Below, in pieces: positions 2,145 to 11,081 of a DNA stretch of 42,896 nt. The notes beneath the pieces were generated by a model. The model did no database searches and had not been told where the DNA came from. It saw only the letters and a list, made by a program, of their open reading frames with translations. Within the stretch, counting starts at the first letter, position 1. Each line of letters starts with the position of its first letter. Source of the DNA: a virus; the IMG/VR virus record IMGVR_UViG_3300023171_000317, positions 1 to 42,896 of that record; one strand, 5' to 3'. The translations under genes and the position numbers were made by a program.

Positions 2145-2433
2145 TGGCCACCCGTCCTTCGCCCGGCATCGGTAGGCGCATCTGGATAACGTTGTCCGCC
2201 GGCGCCGCGATCGTGGGGAGCACCTTTCGTGCGCAGCGGGCGGGGCGGTTGATGCGGCGCCACTCAGAGAGGGCCGCATCCGGCTCGGCGTGCTTGCTGG
2301 TCATCCGGCATTTGCACTCGACGAAGTGGCCGCCGCCGGCGGCGATGCTGCGCAGGTCGTGGATGTGGCGCGCGCGGTGCCCGGCGGCGCAGTCCGGTAG
2401 CCCTTCGGGGTGGCTGATATGTCGCTGGGTCAT
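2137..2433 (-). CDS. Hypothetical phage protein
   Basis: 98 residues, not recognised. It is rich in His and Cys in the first half (DCAAGHRARHIHD, HFVECKCR), which could bind a metal. The ATG overlaps the methyltransferase stop (ATGA), and its own stop overlaps the DUF4224 start, so it is an ordinary member of the leftward operon. Confidence 0.7.
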   Translation of the reverse strand: MTQRHISHPEGLPDCAAGHRARHIHDLRSIAAGGGHFVECKCRMTSKHAEPDAALSEWRRINRPARCARKVLPTIAAPADNVIQMRLPMPGEGRVASG

Positions 2434-3863
2434 GCTGCCTTCTCCAGAGCGGCCTGAGTGGCCGCGTCAATACGGGTTCCAATCCACCTGATAACGGGCA
2501 CGGCGAAGCTGTTGCCGAGGATCTTGTAGCGAGGGCCGTCGGCCATCGGCTTGCCCTTTGGGTTCAACACCAGAGTCCAATTGTCCGGCGCGCCTTGCAG
2601 GCGCTCGCACTCGATCGGCGTAAGTCGTCGAACTTGAGTGGGGGTCAGGAGGGCAGGGGCTGGGCTGTTGGCGTCCAGGCATGTCGTGCGCTCTTCAAAC
2701 ACCTTTCCGGCGTTGTTGCTGGATGTGTTGTGGAGCTTGGTGGTGTACGCAACTGCGACCTGGCCGCCGGCATTCGCGTGGCTGCCGACGTGGCCCATTG
2801 CGCGAAGTGTCGGGGACACGTCTTCGCTTACGCTCCTGGTTGGATCGCTGTCCTTGCAGCCAAACGCCAGGTAGGTCGTTTGCTTCATTCCAGGCTGCGC
2901 GGCGAGAGCTCCCGCTACGGTCACCTCGCGCACTTCGTCACGCTGGTTCTGGGCAAATGCGACCACTGGAACCAGTGGGGTTCCTCGACCGGTTCCGTCC
3001 TCGCTGGCGTCAACCCCATCGGCCCGCAGGGTGTGAGCTACGGCGGGGATCAGGAGACCGGCGTGCGCGTCCTGTTGCGTGGCGCTGCCGGCCGCTTTAG
3101 GGTTTGCCGAGAGCGTGCCGGCGACTTGCTGGATGAGGCCCGTCCCGCCATCGACTTCGGCGCGGATGCCAGGCCCGTGACTGCTTCCAGCGCCTGCCGT
3201 AAGGGTTGGGGCAGGTCTTTCCCCCTGCCGTCGGCGCGGCGCAGAATCCCCGCGCATGCGGTCGGGCTCAAGAAGTACCGGGGGTCGATCGGACCAGTTT
3301 CCAGTATCGAGGACAGCGAACACGCGACGGCGCCGCTGCGCCACTCCGAACCACTGCGCGTCAAGCACGGCCCATTCGACGAGGCCGTTGTCACCCAGCG
3401 CAACGCCTTCGGATCCCCACCCACCTGCGGGGACAGGGAGCTCGGATCCTGCCATTGCACCAACCACGACAGCAAAGTCTCGCCCCTGGTTGCTGCTGAA
3501 GGCGCCTGGGACGTTCTCCCAGACGAGCCAGCGTGCCCCGCAAAAATGTCGAGCTGCATTGAAGATCCTCATTTGCTGATGGAACAGGCTGGACCGCGCG
3601 CCGCCGAGGCCAGCGCGGCGTCCAGCGACGGACAGGTCCTGGCAGGGGCTGCCGCCGATCACGACGTCGATGGCGCCGAGTGCCTTGATCTGTTCGTCGG
3701 TGATATCGGAGACGCTGCCGAGATTCGGCGCTTCGGGGAGGCGGTGACGGAGCAAGGCGCACGCGGCGGGATCGATCTCGGCCACGGCAACGCATTCCCA
3801 GCCGAGCGGTGCCCAGGACAGGTGCGCGGCTTCCATGCCCGAGAAGAGGGATAGGTATCGCAT
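2430..3863 (-). CDS. dcm: DNA cytosine-5 methyltransferase (Dcm type)
   Basis: 477 residues. It transfers a methyl group from S-adenosylmethionine to C5 of cytosine in phage and host DNA. Motifs in order: motif I LSLFSGMEAAHL (4-15), motif IV GGSPCQDLS with the catalytic Cys74, motif VI ENVPG (116-120), motif VIII QRRRRVF (176-182), motif IX RRLTPIECERLQG (412-424) and motif X YKILGNSF (446-453). The target-recognition part (about 190-405) is long and carries a recurring short motif (APTLTAG, VAGTLSA, VAHTLRA, VSPTLRA). No restriction enzyme gene is adjacent, so this is probably an orphan enzyme protecting phage DNA. It overlaps the genes on both sides by 4 bases (ATGA). Confidence 0.93.
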   Translation of the reverse strand: MRYLSLFSGMEAAHLSWAPLGWECVAVAEIDPAACALLRHRLPEAPNLGSVSDITDEQIKALGAIDVVIGGSPCQDLSVAGRRAGLGGARSSLFHQQMRIFNAARHFCGARWLVWENVPGAFSSNQGRDFAVVVGAMAGSELPVPAGGWGSEGVALGDNGLVEWAVLDAQWFGVAQRRRRVFAVLDTGNWSDRPPVLLEPDRMRGDSAPRRRQGERPAPTLTAGAGSSHGPGIRAEVDGGTGLIQQVAGTLSANPKAAGSATQQDAHAGLLIPAVAHTLRADGVDASEDGTGRGTPLVPVVAFAQNQRDEVREVTVAGALAAQPGMKQTTYLAFGCKDSDPTRSVSEDVSPTLRAMGHVGSHANAGGQVAVAYTTKLHNTSSNNAGKVFEERTTCLDANSPAPALLTPTQVRRLTPIECERLQGAPDNWTLVLNPKGKPMADGPRYKILGNSFAVPVIRWIGTRIDAATQAALEKAA

Positions 3864-5955: not shown

Positions 5956-6191
5956 TCGGCACCGCCTTCGAGTCGAGCCAGCGTGTTGCGCAGCTCTTCG
6001 ATACGGCGCCGGTCCTTTGCTGCATCGATTTGGTAGCCAGCCGCCACGCGCGCCGAGGCGGCGCGGTTCGGGTTTGCTGGGTTGTTCGCGCGGCGCTCGA
6101 AGTGGCGCGCCCGGCGTGATGCGCCTCGCTCCAGGCGAATCCACCATGCGAGGTTGCTGCGCAGTTGCTGGATCGCAGGGGACGCGCTCAT
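5952..6191 (-). CDS. Hypothetical helical phage protein
   Basis: 79 residues, strongly basic and helical (RSNLAWWIRLERGASRRARHF; IDAAKDRRRIEELRNTLARLE). The C-terminal heptads could form a coiled coil. It overlaps both neighbours by 4 bases. Not recognised. Confidence 0.6.
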   Translation of the reverse strand: MSASPAIQQLRSNLAWWIRLERGASRRARHFERRANNPANPNRAASARVAAGYQIDAAKDRRRIEELRNTLARLEGGAE

Positions 6192-6427
6192 GCCTGCACC
6201 TCCACCAGGTCGGCGTTGCCGAGCTGCAGGGCGCCGATGCGCATGCCGGTGCGGATGTGGTTGGCGCGCAGTTCGAGCGCGGCGCTGGAGCCCTTCATGG
6301 CGAGCTCGGCCCATTCGGCGGGCGAGAGGTTGATCTCGACGGTGCCGAAGGAGATGGCGACGGTATCGGTGGCGTGCACGGCTTTGACCGTGACGGGACC
6401 GGAAGCGGTGAAGGCAGCGAAAGCCAT
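6188..6427 (-). CDS. First gene of the leftward early operon, hypothetical
   Basis: 79 residues (MAFAAFTASGPVTVKAV...), mostly beta strands then a helix (SPAEWAELAMKGSSAALELR). A GGAG lies about 8 bases before the ATG. The leader from the predicted leftward promoter is about 44 nt. Position corresponds to the first gene after pL in lambdoid phages, but no similarity to an N-type antiterminator is visible. Confidence 0.65.
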   Translation of the reverse strand: MAFAAFTASGPVTVKAVHATDTVAISFGTVEINLSPAEWAELAMKGSSAALELRANHIRTGMRIGALQLGNADLVEVQA

Positions 6428-6478
6428 GGAGGACTCCGAGCCCCGGCCCGGATGGGCTGTTACTGGGGCGACGGAGTT

Positions 6479-6507
6479 AGGTTAGGAGAAGCTAATCAGC
6501 CAGTCAA
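6479..6507 (-). promoter_or_regulatory. Leftward early promoter (pL-like)
   Basis: On the minus strand, -35 TTGACT (plus-strand 6502-6507), a 17-bp spacer and -10 TAACCT (6479-6484). The -35 box lies in the gap between two repressor operators and the downstream operator overlaps the spacer and -10, as at the rightward promoter. Confidence 0.75.
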
Positions 6508-6520
6508 TAGGAGTGGCTAA
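6482..6520. promoter_or_regulatory. Left operator pair (25-bp spacing)
   Basis: Two palindromic 14-mers, TTAGGAGAAGCTAA (6482-6495) and ATAGGAGTGGCTAA (6507-6520), start 25 bp apart. They match the TTAG-N6-CTAA sites beside the repressor gene, so CI and/or Cro probably bind both clusters. Confidence 0.8.
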
Positions 6521-6536
6521 CTTTAACCGGCTTTGG

Positions 6537-6575
6537 ATGAACGAAAATGATTTCGTTCATTGATTCGTTCATTGA
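6537..6575. repeat. Inverted repeat plus 12-bp tandem repeat
   Basis: ATGAACGAAA (6537-6546) and TTTCGTTCAT (6551-6560) form a perfect 10-bp inverted repeat with a 4-nt spacer. TTCGTTCATTGA is repeated exactly in tandem at 6552-6563 and 6564-6575. The sequence is AT-rich, differs from the CI operators, and lies upstream of the rightward two-gene unit. It looks like a separate operator. Confidence 0.7.
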
Positions 6576-6691
6576 ATCGTTAGGCGATTTGGAGGTGGGA
6601 CACACAGTTCGTATTTCTACTAATGACTCTGAAGCCGGCTGCGCCGTATCATGCGTTCGGCCCAGGATGGGCGTAACAGGGGATAGCTTGT

Positions 6692-7024
6692 ATGAGCAAT
6701 GAAAACGTAGTGCCGACCATTTCGGTACGGCATGAGCGTGTCCGCGATTACCGGACTGAATTCGTCAACGGCGTTGCCACCACAGGCCCACTCGCCGACG
6801 GTTTTTTTCGACTTACCTTTTTCAGGGACGCGATTCCCGCCCTCACTGAAGTCTACGACTCGGTGCCTGGCGATCCGAGCACGGCAGACATGACCAAAGC
6901 TCACCCCATAAATGTCCAAATCTTCCGCGAAGACCTGCTGACGCTCGTAGTGACGCCAGAGATCGCCTTTAAAATGGGGCAGGATCTGATCGGCATGGCG
7001 GCTCCCCACATCGACCCGGTCTGA
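6692..7024 (+). CDS. Hypothetical protein 1 of a low-GC two-gene unit
   Basis: 110 residues (MSNENVVPTISVRHERV...). It has alternating beta strands and a C-terminal helix (TPEIAFKMGQDLIGMAAPHI). The layout loosely recalls DUF3467-like proteins, but that is a weak impression. AGGGGA precedes the ATG. A weak promoter, ATGACT-18-TATCAT at 6623-6652, is possible. The gene is poorer in GC than its neighbours and lies between the leftward promoter and the convergent repressor gene, so it is an accessory insertion. Function unknown. Confidence 0.75.
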   Translation: MSNENVVPTISVRHERVRDYRTEFVNGVATTGPLADGFFRLTFFRDAIPALTEVYDSVPGDPSTADMTKAHPINVQIFREDLLTLVVTPEIAFKMGQDLIGMAAPHIDPV

Positions 7025-7028
7025 TCCA

Positions 7029-7496
7029 ATGGATCTAGACCACGGAGCGTTGGTATCGGTTGACTCTTACTCGTCGTTCACGCTGAACGCTGTAGTAGGG
7101 GTTACCGTAGCAGGTGTTCGGAAAGTCAGAGTCACCCATGGCATTGGTGGGCAGCCGACAGAGCTCACTAGCATTGTGGTAGGTGGCCGACCGCCGGAGA
7201 TGGATATGGATAAATTGAATGAAATTGATGGTCGCCTGCGCACGGTCGAAATTGATCTCGCAGGTATCAAAGAGCGCCTCTCCCACATGCCCACTACCAA
7301 CAACATGCTGGTCACTATGGGGAGCACTGCAGTTCTCATTGTTCTTGCAAGTTGGGCGGTGCTCACCTTTGCTGGTCCGGGCATCATGAAAGGCGCAGTG
7401 AAGGAGCTGGTTGCCGAGCACGTTACTGCCTCGGCTGCCGCGGCCGCGGCCGCCCAAGAGGCTGAATCCGTCAAGACGAAAGGCAGAAGCCGATAA
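7029..7496 (+). CDS. Hypothetical membrane protein 2 of the two-gene unit
   Basis: 155 residues. Residues 1-57 are beta-rich, 58-90 form a likely coiled coil (MDMDKLNEIDGRLRTVEID), 92-115 a transmembrane helix (STAVLIVLASWAVLTFAGPG), and the tail is Ala-rich and basic. It begins 4 bases after the preceding stop without a Shine-Dalgarno sequence, so translation is probably coupled. An internal ATG near 7200 would give the coil plus membrane part alone. A superinfection-exclusion or defence role is possible but unproven. Confidence 0.7.
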   Translation: MDLDHGALVSVDSYSSFTLNAVVGVTVAGVRKVRVTHGIGGQPTELTSIVVGGRPPEMDMDKLNEIDGRLRTVEIDLAGIKERLSHMPTTNNMLVTMGSTAVLIVLASWAVLTFAGPGIMKGAVKELVAEHVTASAAAAAAAQEAESVKTKGRSR

Positions 7497-7500
7497 CAAA

Positions 7501-7525
7501 AACCCCGCTTCGGCGGGGTTTTTTT
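7501..7525. terminator. Bidirectional terminator between the two-gene unit and the repressor
   Basis: Stem AACCCCGC / GCGGGGTT around a TTCG tetraloop, with seven T on the plus side and an A-rich run on the other. It lies between the convergent ends of the rightward gene (7496) and the repressor gene (7554). Confidence 0.9.
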
Positions 7526-7553
7526 ATGTCTTCCCGAAGATGGGGCGCCGCTG

Positions 7554-8258
7554 TTAGAAGCGGCGCAGTCCCGCATGGATCAATGCTTTGCCCATGATGT
7601 TCACTTCGCCTTCGTCAGACTTGTAGGTCGGGAAGTCCGGGTTGATGCTCACTACGTATAGGCCGTCACCTCGCTTCTGCAGCATTTTGATCTGGGTCTC
7701 TCCACCTATGTTGATCAGGTAGTAGTCGTCGCCGTCAAAGTAGTTGCAGCTTGTGTCGATCCAAATGATATCGCCATCTTCGAGCTTGGGTTTCATCGAC
7801 GGGCCACGGCCCGTGATCAGTTGGATCCGGCCCGGCTTTGGCAGGTATCCTAGCTTCCGGCGAACCTCCCACTCGGCCACCTCGATCGTCTGCACCACCT
7901 CGGGGTAGTCCTGGTTCACCAATCCTGCACCCATCCCTGCGCCCCCTTCGAAAACGTCGAAGCGAACATAGCCCGGGCGGGTCTCAGTCTCTAAGATTGG
8001 TGAGACCTGATAGTCGGCAGCTTGTTCGGCCACATGGAAGCCCCGAACGGAAGAGCCTTTGCCTGTGGCCAACCAGTCCTCGTCTACTGACAGGGCTCGG
8101 GCTGCCGCGAGAAGGTTTTCGCCCCGAAGGAATTTTGCTTTCCCAGTGAACCATCCGTTCACGCTGGGCGCGCTGATCCCAACGCGTCGGGCCAATTCGG
8201 CCTTGGTAATTCCAGCGTTCGCGATCGCGACGGTCAATCTTTCGGCGAGTGTGCTCAT
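7554..8258 (-). CDS. CI-like repressor with S24 peptidase domain
   Basis: 234 residues. The N-terminal helix-turn-helix (about 18-40, KAELARRVGISAPSVNGWF) binds operators. The C-terminal LexA/CI-type domain (about 95-230) has the Ser154 nucleophile (GRGPSMKP) and Lys191 general base (TQIKMLQ). The linker DVFEGGAGMGAG contains an Ala-Gly pair that could be the self-cleavage site, so RecA-triggered induction is plausible. The ATG is the first base-triplet of operator 8258-8271 and has no Shine-Dalgarno sequence. It diverges from the Cro-like gene and should maintain lysogeny. Confidence 0.92.
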   Translation of the reverse strand: MSTLAERLTVAIANAGITKAELARRVGISAPSVNGWFTGKAKFLRGENLLAAARALSVDEDWLATGKGSSVRGFHVAEQAADYQVSPILETETRPGYVRFDVFEGGAGMGAGLVNQDYPEVVQTIEVAEWEVRRKLGYLPKPGRIQLITGRGPSMKPKLEDGDIIWIDTSCNYFDGDDYYLINIGGETQIKMLQKRGDGLYVVSINPDFPTYKSDEGEVNIMGKALIHAGLRRF

Positions 8259-8321
8259 TAGGCAAGGCTAACGATAGTTGGGTTAGGACTGGCTATTGAC
8301 TTGACCATTAGCTAGTCCTAA
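8258..8321. promoter_or_regulatory. Right operator cluster, three sites at 25-bp spacing
   Basis: TTAGGCAAGGCTAA (8258-8271), TTAGGACTGGCTAT (8283-8296) and TTAGCTAGTCCTAA (8308-8321) start exactly 25 bp apart. The last two also form a larger inverted repeat. The first overlaps the repressor start codon and the last overlaps the rightward -10 box, so occupancy would control both divergent genes. Confidence 0.88.
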
Positions 8322-8324
8322 TCT
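8296..8324 (+). promoter_or_regulatory. Rightward early promoter (pR-like)
   Basis: -35 TTGACT (8296-8301), a 17-bp spacer and -10 TAATCT (8319-8324). The predicted start of transcription (8331-8332) coincides with the ATG of the Cro-like gene, so that message is probably leaderless. Confidence 0.8.
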
Positions 8325-8331
8325 TTGTTGC

Positions 8332-8781
8332 ATGGACAAGCCCACCGACTCCGAGATCATCGACCGCCTTGGCGGAACTACAGAAGTTGCGCGCATCTGC
8401 CAGATCAAGCCTCCCTCCGTCAGCGAATGGCGCTCCAGCGGCATTCCGTCGGCTCGCCGGCAGTTTTTGGCCTTGCTGCGTCCGGAGGCCTTCGAAGCCA
8501 TGCCGATCAAGTCTGTTCGGCAGGCCGTCGCGTCCCTCGTCGATACCCGAATGAGCAAGCGCGCGCTGAGGGCGAAGCTGGGCCTCAAGACCGACGCGCA
8601 TCTGGCCAAAGTGTTGAAGCTGCCGACGGCTGAGGTTGAAGCCTGGCCAGAAGATGACCGCGTTCCGGCCTTGCCGCAGGTGCTGCAGCTGCTCGGTGTG
8701 CAGGAACAGCCGCCGCCGTCCGCCTCGGTGCCGGACGACCCGGACGCTGACCGTATCGACCTCGGCGTCCACGCCGCCTGA
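8332..8781 (+). CDS. Cro-like regulator (YdaS-type helix-turn-helix)
   Basis: 149 residues. The N-terminus (SEIIDRLGGTTEVARICQI, then KPPSVSEWRSSGIPSARR) is a typical Cro/YdaS helix-turn-helix, expected to oppose the repressor and turn down early transcription. The rest is helical and then Pro/Asp-rich. No ribosome-binding site precedes the ATG, which sits at the predicted transcription start. First gene of the rightward operon. Confidence 0.85.
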   Translation: MDKPTDSEIIDRLGGTTEVARICQIKPPSVSEWRSSGIPSARRQFLALLRPEAFEAMPIKSVRQAVASLVDTRMSKRALRAKLGLKTDAHLAKVLKLPTAEVEAWPEDDRVPALPQVLQLLGVQEQPPPSASVPDDPDADRIDLGVHAA

Positions 8782-8890
8782 TTGGCCTTCCCTGGCCATC
8801 GTCCCTGAATTGAATTCGTCCATGACGCAGATCGTGCGCCATGACGGGCCAGCTCGAAACCTTGAAACACCCGTCATCCCAAGGTGAACC

Positions 8891-9421
8891 ATGACCTGCC
8901 GTACTTCCTCGATTAACTGGCTCGACTGCCTCTACAACGCCGTGCGCAAGACGCCGGGCGGTGTGATCGAGGCTGCCAAGTGGCTGACCGACCGCCGCGG
9001 CAAGTCCATGCACCCGGAGACGCTGCGAGCGAAGCTCAACGGCACGGAGGGTGAGTCGGTGACCATCGAAATTGCCGAGCTGCTGACCGAGTGGATGCAG
9101 CAGAAGGCCGGCGGCAGTGAGTACGCACTTGAGTGGATGCAGGCACTGGCCGGGCAGTTCGGCATGGCTGTTGACCTGGTGCCGCCGGCGCCGGAAGGCG
9201 GCTGGCCCGACGAGATCGCCGCGGTGCAGCTGAAGCTGTTGGAGATCACCACGCGAGTCGGCCGCCTCACCGGAACCGCCGTTGATGCGATTGGCGATCG
9301 GCATATCGACAGCAACGAAGCCGCGCTGATGGTGAGCGAGGCTCGCGCGCTGCGCACGATGGCCCACCGCCTGGAGCGCAATGTGGCGCGCGCTGCCGGC
9401 AAGGGGAGGGCGTCCCGATGA
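8891..9421 (+). CDS. Phage regulatory protein CII (CP76 family)
   Basis: 176 residues. The segment MHPETLRAKLNGTEGESVTI followed by EIAELLTEW matches the core of the P2/186-type CII regulators, which activate repressor synthesis during establishment of lysogeny. The C-terminal half is helical and may oligomerise. AAGGTG precedes the ATG by 4 bases. It follows a 109-base gap after the Cro-like gene and overlaps the next gene by 4 bases. Confidence 0.8.
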   Translation: MTCRTSSINWLDCLYNAVRKTPGGVIEAAKWLTDRRGKSMHPETLRAKLNGTEGESVTIEIAELLTEWMQQKAGGSEYALEWMQALAGQFGMAVDLVPPAPEGGWPDEIAAVQLKLLEITTRVGRLTGTAVDAIGDRHIDSNEAALMVSEARALRTMAHRLERNVARAAGKGRASR

Positions 9422-9730: not shown

Positions 9731-10588
9731 ATGAGCTTTGAAGCCTTCGCATGGGCTGCTCGCCAGCGCGTCACCAGCACACAGAAGCTGGTGCTGCTGA
9801 TGTTGGCCGAGCGCCACAACAAGGACACCGGGCAGTGCAGGCCGAGCCACGACACGCTGGCAGACGATTGCGGCCTGACCCGCCGTTCGGTGATCGACCA
9901 GATCAGCAAGCTCGCCGAGGCCGGTTACATCAGCGTCCTGCCGCGCGCAAAAGACAACCGTCGGCTGCCGAATCAGTACCGGCTGAACTTCCACTTTGGC
10001 ATCCAGGCTGAGCCGAAGGTTCCCGAGCACGATCCGTATCTGGTGGTGAATGACGTTCACCACCCGGTAGTGAACGAGGTGCACGGGGTAGTGAATGACG
10101 TTCACGGGGGTGGTGAACGACGTGCACAGGAACCAGGAAGAGAACCAGGAAGAGAACCTAAGAGCAGAAAGAAGCGCGCAAGCGCGCCGACCGCCCACCC
10201 GGCGGATCTGGATTTCTCGACCTGGCCCACCCCGCCGTCCCCCCAAGTCCTGGCCGACTGGCTGCAGCTTCGCCGCAACCGCCGCGCCCCAGTCACACCG
10301 ACCGTGCTGGAGAGCTTCGGCGCCGAGCTTCACCAGGCCGCTGCCTTGGGCTTCGGCGTCGATGACTGCCTCCGCAAGTGCTGCAACCGCAACTGGCAGG
10401 GCTTTGAAGCTGCCTGGCTCGAACGCGAGCTGACCACCACCAACCGTCCCACTGGAGGCCCCCATGCAATCCGTCGCGAATCTCCTGCCGAACGCGTCAT
10501 GCGCCTTGCTCTCGACGGCGAGCGCGCCGATGCCGAGCGCGGCCCTTTCATCGACGGTGACGCGCACCCTCTGGGTCCGCATGGCTGA
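9731..10588 (+). CDS. Replication initiator, O-like, with HTH_36 domain
   Basis: 285 residues. The first 90 form a helix-turn-helix domain (TSTQKLVLLMLAERHN, CGLTRRSVIDQISKLAEAGY) typical of phage replication proteins. Residues about 106-132 are low-complexity repeats (VVNDVHHPVVNEVHGVVNDV) encoded by DNA iterons, followed by a basic linker and a C-terminal domain (about 155-240). As in lambda O, the gene appears to contain the origin that its product binds. The P-like gene starts inside it. Confidence 0.85.
   Translation: MSFEAFAWAARQRVTSTQKLVLLMLAERHNKDTGQCRPSHDTLADDCGLTRRSVIDQISKLAEAGYISVLPRAKDNRRLPNQYRLNFHFGIQAEPKVPEHDPYLVVNDVHHPVVNEVHGVVNDVHGGGERRAQEPGREPGREPKSRKKRASAPTAHPADLDFSTWPTPPSPQVLADWLQLRRNRRAPVTPTVLESFGAELHQAAALGFGVDDCLRKCCNRNWQGFEAAWLERELTTTNRPTGGPHAIRRESPAERVMRLALDGERADAERGPFIDGDAHPLGPHG
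10046..10127. other. Probable phage replication origin: four iterons
   Basis: Four near-palindromic 15-mers of pattern GTGAAnGAsGTkCAC begin at 10046, 10070, 10091 and 10113 (24, 21 and 22 bp apart, about two helical turns). They are followed by a purine-rich, lower-GC stretch with direct repeats (ggaaccaggaagaga) to about 10175. The layout parallels lambda ori inside gene O. Confidence 0.75.
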
Positions 10589-11081
10589 GATCTACGGCCC
10601 GAAGTGGACGGCCGGCTATGGCGACAACCCCAATACGGGCGCGGCGCTGACTTGGGCAAAGGGCTTGGCTGGGCTAACCGGCGAGCAGCTGGCCGCTGGC
10701 ATCGGTGGTTGCATCACCTGCGCGGATCCCTGGCCCCCTACGCTCCCTGAATTTCGCCTGCGTTGCCTGGGCGTGCCGGCCTTCGCTGCGGTGCGTGCCG
10801 ATGCTGGCAAGCGGGACGGCTTCACCCGGCTGGTCTGGCAGTACCTCGATGGCCATCGCTACCGGCTGGCGAGCTCGGACATGGCCGACCGCCTGTTGCG
10901 GGAAGCGTACGACCAAGCCCGCGAGCACGTGATGCGAGGCGGGGCACTGCCGGAGGCGCCGGCGGCCGAGATTGAGCACGAGGTCCGCGTGCAGGTCCCG
11001 GCCAGCCGTGAGCAGGTGCAGCAGCACATGGCCGAGATCGCCCGCGAGCTGAACATGGCTGCCGCTGCGGAGGCTGCTTGA
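10464..11081 (+). CDS. Helicase-loader-like replication protein (P-like)
   Basis: 205 residues. The part LWVRMAEIYGPKW, then GAALTWAKGLAGLTGEQLAAG and WPPTLPEFRLRC resembles the lambda P family, which recruits the host DnaB helicase to the initiator at the origin. I chose the ATG at 10464 because GGAGG stands 5 bases before it, although this overlaps the O-like gene by 125 bases. An alternative ATG at 10581 overlaps the O-like stop (ATGGCTGA) but would cut into the conserved start. Confidence 0.75.
   Translation: MQSVANLLPNASCALLSTASAPMPSAALSSTVTRTLWVRMAEIYGPKWTAGYGDNPNTGAALTWAKGLAGLTGEQLAAGIGGCITCADPWPPTLPEFRLRCLGVPAFAAVRADAGKRDGFTRLVWQYLDGHRYRLASSDMADRLLREAYDQAREHVMRGGALPEAPAAEIEHEVRVQVPASREQVQQHMAEIARELNMAAAAEAA

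Follow-up and report, generated by a model that had tools for sequence, protein, structure and literature searches.

Which protein reads the five related 14-bp sites that lie in two clusters on either side of the repressor gene of a phage, and do these clusters form a bipartite genetic switch? The question is raised by the viral record IMGVR_UViG_3300023171_000317 of IMG/VR, which was analysed as a whole (42,896 bp, hereafter the window). Scanning the window for TTAG-N6-CTAA with at most one mismatch returns exactly five matches, at 6482, 6507, 8258, 8283 and 8308, and none beyond these. An earlier note on this DNA had described the five sites and a 25-bp spacing within each cluster, and the scan bears out both, all three pairs of neighbours being 25 bp apart. 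The number of sites is by itself unremarkable, with 1.92 expected and five or more occurring in 7 of 100 shuffles. What is unusual is their clustering, as two sites 14-40 bp apart are seen in 1 of 300 Markov-resampled windows and two pairs with equal spacing in none of the 300. A full two-site array occurs in only 2 of 91 Stenotrophomonas genomes, there as a three-site cluster with 25-bp spacing, and therefore the array is not scattered across host chromosomes.

It is proposed that the phage's own CI, and probably also its Cro, uses the five sites as operators of a bipartite switch of the lambda type, a reading to which we give a probability of about 0.93 on sequence grounds. Its basis is the position of the sites, their embedding in promoters, their conservation, the gene context and the way in which the site sequence follows the N-terminal domain of CI. 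The sites and the two promoters that carry them are as follows.

6479 to 6507, minus strand: PL promoter, TTGACT (6507-6502), 17 bp, TAACCT (6484-6479), directed leftwards into the gene block from 6427 to 897
6482 to 6495, minus strand: OL1 operator, TTAGCTTCTCCTAA in the PL direction, overlapping the PL -10 box
6507 to 6520, minus strand: OL2 operator, TTAGCCACTCCTAT in the PL direction, its last base being the first T of the PL -35 box
8258 to 8271, plus strand: OR3 operator, TTAGGCAAGGCTAA, abutting the cI start codon
8283 to 8296, plus strand: OR2 operator, TTAGGACTGGCTAT, its last base being the first T of the PR -35 box
8296 to 8324, plus strand: PR promoter, TTGACT (8296-8301), 17 bp, TAATCT (8319-8324), directed into cro
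8308 to 8321, plus strand: OR1 operator, TTAGCTAGTCCTAA, overlapping the PR -10 box

The genes around them are arranged as follows.

6188 to 6427, minus strand: first PL operon gene, with a start region that follows the leader conserved across immunity types
6692 to 7496, plus strand: two-gene cargo (110 aa; 155 aa, putative membrane protein) between OL and cI, convergent with cI
7554 to 8258, minus strand: cI repressor gene, 234 aa, XRE helix-turn-helix (HTH) and Peptidase_S24, with a conserved Ser154 and the Lys of ETQIK
8332 to 8781, plus strand: cro-like gene (149 aa) with an HTH of the P22-Cro/YdaS type at the N-terminus and a further, weaker HTH-like domain
8891 to 9421, plus strand: cII-like activator gene, PHROG 101
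9731 to 10588, plus strand: O-like replication initiation gene of the right operon, PHROG 678
10464 to 11081, plus strand: P-like helicase loader gene, PHROG 109

The leftward cI followed by rightward cro, cII, O and P, together with leftward genes beyond OL, identifies this as a lambda-type immunity and early region. The divergent repressor and cro genes enclose three of the sites, a CII-type activator and O/P genes follow in the right operon, and the second cluster lies over the promoter of the left operon beyond cI. CI combines an HTH with an S24 autoprotease domain, with Peptidase_S24 recognised at 58.7 bits (cut-off 23.3) and HTH_3 also above its cut-off. Ser154 is invariant, and the fold matches are to P22 c2 for the N-terminus and to lambda CI, LexA and UmuD for the C-terminus. 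The Cro-like protein scores 28.9 bits against PF14549 (P22-type Cro) over residues 7-42, short of the cut-off of 30.2, and its top fold matches are the Cro proteins of Xfaso 1, N15 and P22, but with E values of 0.25-1. The AlphaFold models are of modest quality (pLDDT 65 for Cro and 68 for CI) and are used for the fold class only. The second HTH-like domain of Cro forms the C-terminal half of the protein and is missing in the relatives L012 and L127; the two-domain Cro is possibly a single-chain pseudo-dimer.

Both promoters have the same form, TTGACT-17-TAAyCT. The -10 box, which begins with the TAA of OR1 or OL1, is overlapped by one site of each cluster (8308, 6482), and the site 25 bp away from it (8283, 6507) adjoins the -35 box; the TTGACT box and the site over the -10 region claimed for each cluster are thereby confirmed at PL and PR. 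The only sites with a mismatch are 6507 and 8283, which deviate solely at the outermost base, CTAT replacing CTAA because the last operator base is also the first T of the -35 hexamer. In a wider search, the pattern of which fixed neither the base before TGAC nor the sixth base of the -10 box, these are T in 91 of 91 and in 89 of 91 distinct arrays, respectively. A sigma-70 consensus scan of the window missed both PL and PR because their -10 boxes are weak.

The seating of the sites on a promoter with a 17-bp spacer also accounts for the 25 bp between OR1 and OR2 and between OL1 and OL2: the first bases of the two hexamers are 23 bp apart, and a further 2 bp gives 25 bp from centre to centre. 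Being set by this arithmetic, the spacing is not independent evidence of cooperativity. The distance from OR2 to OR3 is also 25 bp, in the window and in Acinetobacter relatives, and as it is free of the promoter constraint it gives a better hint of contact between adjacent dimers. We infer that TTAG/CTAA ends have been favoured repeatedly, as CTAA suits a -10 box and CTAT a -35 box. The same overlap could be taken to mean that the sites are promoter artefacts, their CTAA or CTAT ends stemming from the hexamers and the palindromes being by-products, and indeed the site ends coincide with hexamers in every array. This is most improbable, as the TTAG left halves and OR3 lie outside the hexamers and are invariant in 15 phages in which the adjacent spacers have drifted, and as other immunity types retain the promoters and change the palindromes.

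The reading of the sites as CI operators is consistent with their conservation. The OR region aligns without gaps in 15 relatives, where the outer eight bases of all three sites have an identity of 1.00 and the cores 0.93, compared with 0.61 for the spacers, a value that includes the fully invariant -35 box, most other spacer positions reaching about 0.25-0.55. At OL (13 relatives) the outer bases score 1.00 and the core 0.85, and the 25 bp upstream of the OL sites 0.28, which is random; the outer-base values of OR1/OR2 and OL1/OL2 are partly built in for loci found by pattern, which were preselected on these bases, and L005-L012 and OR3 are free of this effect, several loci having been retrieved through protein similarity without any DNA pattern. 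The OR sites stand at -63, -38 and -13 of the cI ATG in all close relatives, also in those that protein similarity alone had retrieved, and OR3 keeps the -13 position in 15 of 15 aligned relatives. The sequence TTCGTTCATCCAAA, located 25 bp upstream of OL2, was considered as a third OL site and rejected, as it has two mismatches and is not kept in relatives, so that OL comprises two operators rather than the three per cluster of lambda.

In a lysogen, CI dimers would occupy OR1/OR2 and OL1/OL2, possibly binding cooperatively, and from the sites that cover the -10 and abut the -35 boxes would keep RNA polymerase off the cro-cII-O-P operon and the left operon. OR3 at the cI start codon would most likely serve in negative autoregulation and/or as the target to which Cro binds. 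Upon DNA damage the SOS response would inactivate CI through its S24 domain, presumably by RecA-triggered cleavage, and both operons would be released. No convincing location for PRM was found in the window, and since OR2 is 25 bp from OR3 and OR3 touches the ATG, it is not evident how OR2 would activate PRM in the manner of lambda. The cI ATG at 8258, which OR3 touches, is not preceded by a Shine-Dalgarno sequence, and cI may be leaderless as in lambda.

Which protein reads the sites is indicated by a natural exchange of CI domains among the relatives. When the C-terminal domain diverges and the N-terminal domain is retained, TTAG-N6-CTAA is kept at OR, and at OL where the contig reaches it. 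This is the case in L127 (N-domain 84%, C-domain 41% identical), in L135, L088 and L031 (60-68% and 26-30%) and in L036, where an N-domain of 66% identity stands without an S24 domain. Conversely, L014 has a C-domain of 97% and an N-domain of 30% identity and carries the operators TTACC-N4-GGTAA at OR and OL. L013 and L016 (C-domain 87-89%, N-domain 33%) carry ACGGAATnCCGT at OR and OL, as do L017 and L018, which resemble them, and L157 (N-domain 33%, C-domain 84%) has ACAGAATnCTGT at OR. Operator specificity therefore follows the N-terminal domain of CI in both directions, which points to this domain as the predicted reader of the sites.

Furthermore, the specificity of OR and OL is switched together wherever both clusters are readable, so that the same specificity stands at both clusters and follows the DNA-binding domain of CI. 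L010 and L014 share a homologous block of C-domain and cargo (77% over 1.46 kb), and their PL leaders are 96% identical, yet they differ in OR with the N-domain on one side of this block and in OL on its other side, the changed OL lying in a short unrelated patch between the cargo block and the PL leader. With the gene content and the phylogenetic footprinting, this domain-swap comparison supports the proposal of the earlier note that the locus is a lambda-like OL/OR layout with a different repressor and operator. The CI of L036 is 174 aa long (8335-8859 of that locus), with the same N-domain and operators and no S24 domain, and is probably not cleavable in the SOS response.

The LexA box of the Xanthomonadaceae has the form TTAG-N6-TACTA. 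This shared TTAG-N6 half, and the link of CI-type prophages to the SOS response, would fit a scheme in which host LexA or a different SOS regulator is the main reader of the sites and CI binds elsewhere. Such a scheme is very unlikely, as the sites change with the CI N-domain inside one phage group of similar host background and their right half is CTAA at an exact length of 14 bp; Acinetobacter phages, which have other hosts, combine a related CI N-domain with identical outer sites.

If the sites are bound by CI, as is preferred here, it may be asked whether the two clusters act together. Looping between OL and OR over 1.8 kb, which the layout makes conceivable, is judged to have about even odds. 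The competing view, nearly as well placed, is that CI binds and represses both promoters purely locally. OL3 is absent here, as it is in 933W, the repressor of which is non-cooperative at OR1-OR2 (PMC5977221), and the loop length varies from about 0.9 to more than 4 kb among the relatives without a conserved phase. In lambda, a loop held by the octamer only is not strongly favoured, yet an octamer at OR12/OL12 is enough to loop 2.3 kb (PMC3708714), and both clusters are kept as pairs in those relatives whose contigs span both, which speaks against local action alone. As there is no conserved third OL site, the OR3-OL3 tetramer that stabilises the lambda loop cannot form in the usual way, and the sole loop that is anatomically possible would be a four-dimer complex of OR1-OR2 and OL1-OL2.

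The window belongs to the group with the SVNGW helix, the operators of which are asymmetric: across 13 phages, 62 of 63 sites (17 of 18 when only distinct sequences are counted) join a TTAGG half to a TTAGC half. Related SV[SN]DW-helix repressors are associated with symmetric TTAGG-N4-CCTAA in 71 of 72 sites. These counts are not independent, since the sites are orthologous within groups. The distant L135 and L031 show the same asymmetry trend, and L088 has exceptions. A two-domain Cro was rejected as the cause, as L012, L127, L135 and L031 combine a one-domain Cro with asymmetric sites. A functional role of the asymmetry is a tentative suggestion, whereby a CI dimer or the choice between CI and Cro would read the operators directionally, or the unlike halves would avoid cross-immunity; in the latter case the phages avoided would be users of either symmetric version.

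The cargo between OL and cI is followed by a terminator (7498-7523) and is not part of the switch. Its genes have no significant match in Pfam, PHROG or PADLOC, and the 155-aa protein has no match in phages. In the window and in L005, L007-L014, L016, L066, L108, L111, L113 and L125, the DNA separating cI from OL is a cargo slot of 0.1-1.8 kb that mostly holds different low-GC genes in each relative. The pair found in the window (110 aa and 155 aa, membrane type) has a counterpart in L009 and a distant one in L016 and is a candidate exclusion module. Upstream of it, at about 6538-6575, lies a palindrome, ATGAACGAAAATGATTTCGTTCAT, followed by the repeat TTCGTTCATTGA; similar TGAAC...GTTCA elements near OL in L007, L008, L009 and L014 are perhaps the site of a second regulator. 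Differing immunity types share a PL leader, GTCGCCCCAGTAACAGCCCATCCGGGCCGGGGC, that is 96-98% conserved (window about 6427-6475; L010 6915-6970; L014 6860-6915) and is a candidate antitermination or leader-RNA element. The left operon includes a C5 methyltransferase gene (2430-3863). A tRNA-Gly(CCC) gene (395-468) adjoins a leftward tyrosine-type integrase gene (897-1937), called from reading its sequence rather than by a family search, and this pairing marks a likely attachment site.

A DNA pattern search that used no protein information recovered phages of several groups, many of which encode, no more than a few kb away, a CI of homologous N-domain that is preceded by a second TTAG cluster. 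A named example with a matching OR cluster and a related CI N-domain is Acinetobacter phage Ab1656-2. At least one unrelated HTH family, the MDINKLRVDALKAVMAG / RRINLRKAID repressors, uses the same outer half-sites with the cores TTAGCA...TGCTAA and TTAGTA...TACTAA, and TTAG-N6-CTAA alone was therefore rejected as a marker of the present CI family. The result is a predicted, uncharacterised operator code for many phages of Xanthomonadaceae, Acinetobacter and others, and a natural experiment in which nearly the same CI C-domain is joined to at least four DNA-binding domains, for each of which a separate operator can be read (TTAG-N6-CTAA, ACGGAATnCCGT, ACAGAATnCTGT and TTACC-N4-GGTAA). Immunity groups would thus be predictable from sequence, and it becomes possible to test a recognition code of XRE repressors. 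The switch of OR and OL around a conserved block in L010 and L014 likewise offers a direct test of how a two-site regulatory element evolves.

Among known systems, lambda shares with the present locus the divergent cI and cro, operators over PL and PR, an S24-type CI, CII and O/P-like genes. It differs in its 17-bp operators (14 bp and another sequence here), in having three rather than two OL sites and in rexAB, which is co-transcribed with cI, whereas the cargo here is convergent with it. The clusters are separated by about 1.8 kb here and by 2.3 kb in lambda (PMC3708714).

The closest solved N-domains, by sequence and by fold, are those of P22 c2 and 434 CI. The operators of 434 are likewise 14 bp long in a 4-6-4 layout, but their half-sites are ACAA/TTGT as opposed to TTAG/CTAA. 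The C repressor of Rhizobium phage 16-3 has a homologous HTH (45% identity), and its annotated 14-bp OR1 and OR2, 26 bp apart, flank the Pr -35 box with OR2 over the -10 box, in addition to a separate OL pair. Unlike the present locus, 16-3 has other half-sites, two OR sites and an OL directly behind the repressor gene, the sites of which are just 12 bp long and stand 17 bp apart.

In the immB region of N15/phiKO2, three OR operators lie between repressor and cro and two more form OL, all five being short palindromes with a TA-N10-TA motif as here (PMC4997575); N15 Cro is also among the best fold matches of the present Cro. In contrast to the present locus, OL of N15/phiKO2 controls repA, phiKO2 Cro binds OR3 only, the repressor lacks self-cleavage residues and the operators are 16 bp long with a different consensus (PMC4997575). 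Shiga phage 933W is also without OL3 (PMC5977221) and has a different repressor and operator family. As N15/phiKO2 and 933W both lack OL3, a third OL site is not required of lambdoid phages (PMC4997575, PMC5977221). Correlations between Cro helix and half-site were the subject of earlier work by Hall, Lefevre and Cordes (2005), as cited in PMC4997575. The three-OR/two-OL arrangement is known from N15/phiKO2, whereas a literature search for the operator string in phages gave no match. Overall, the layout is of the classic lambda type, and it is joined to an uncharacterised recognition sequence that is common to many phages.
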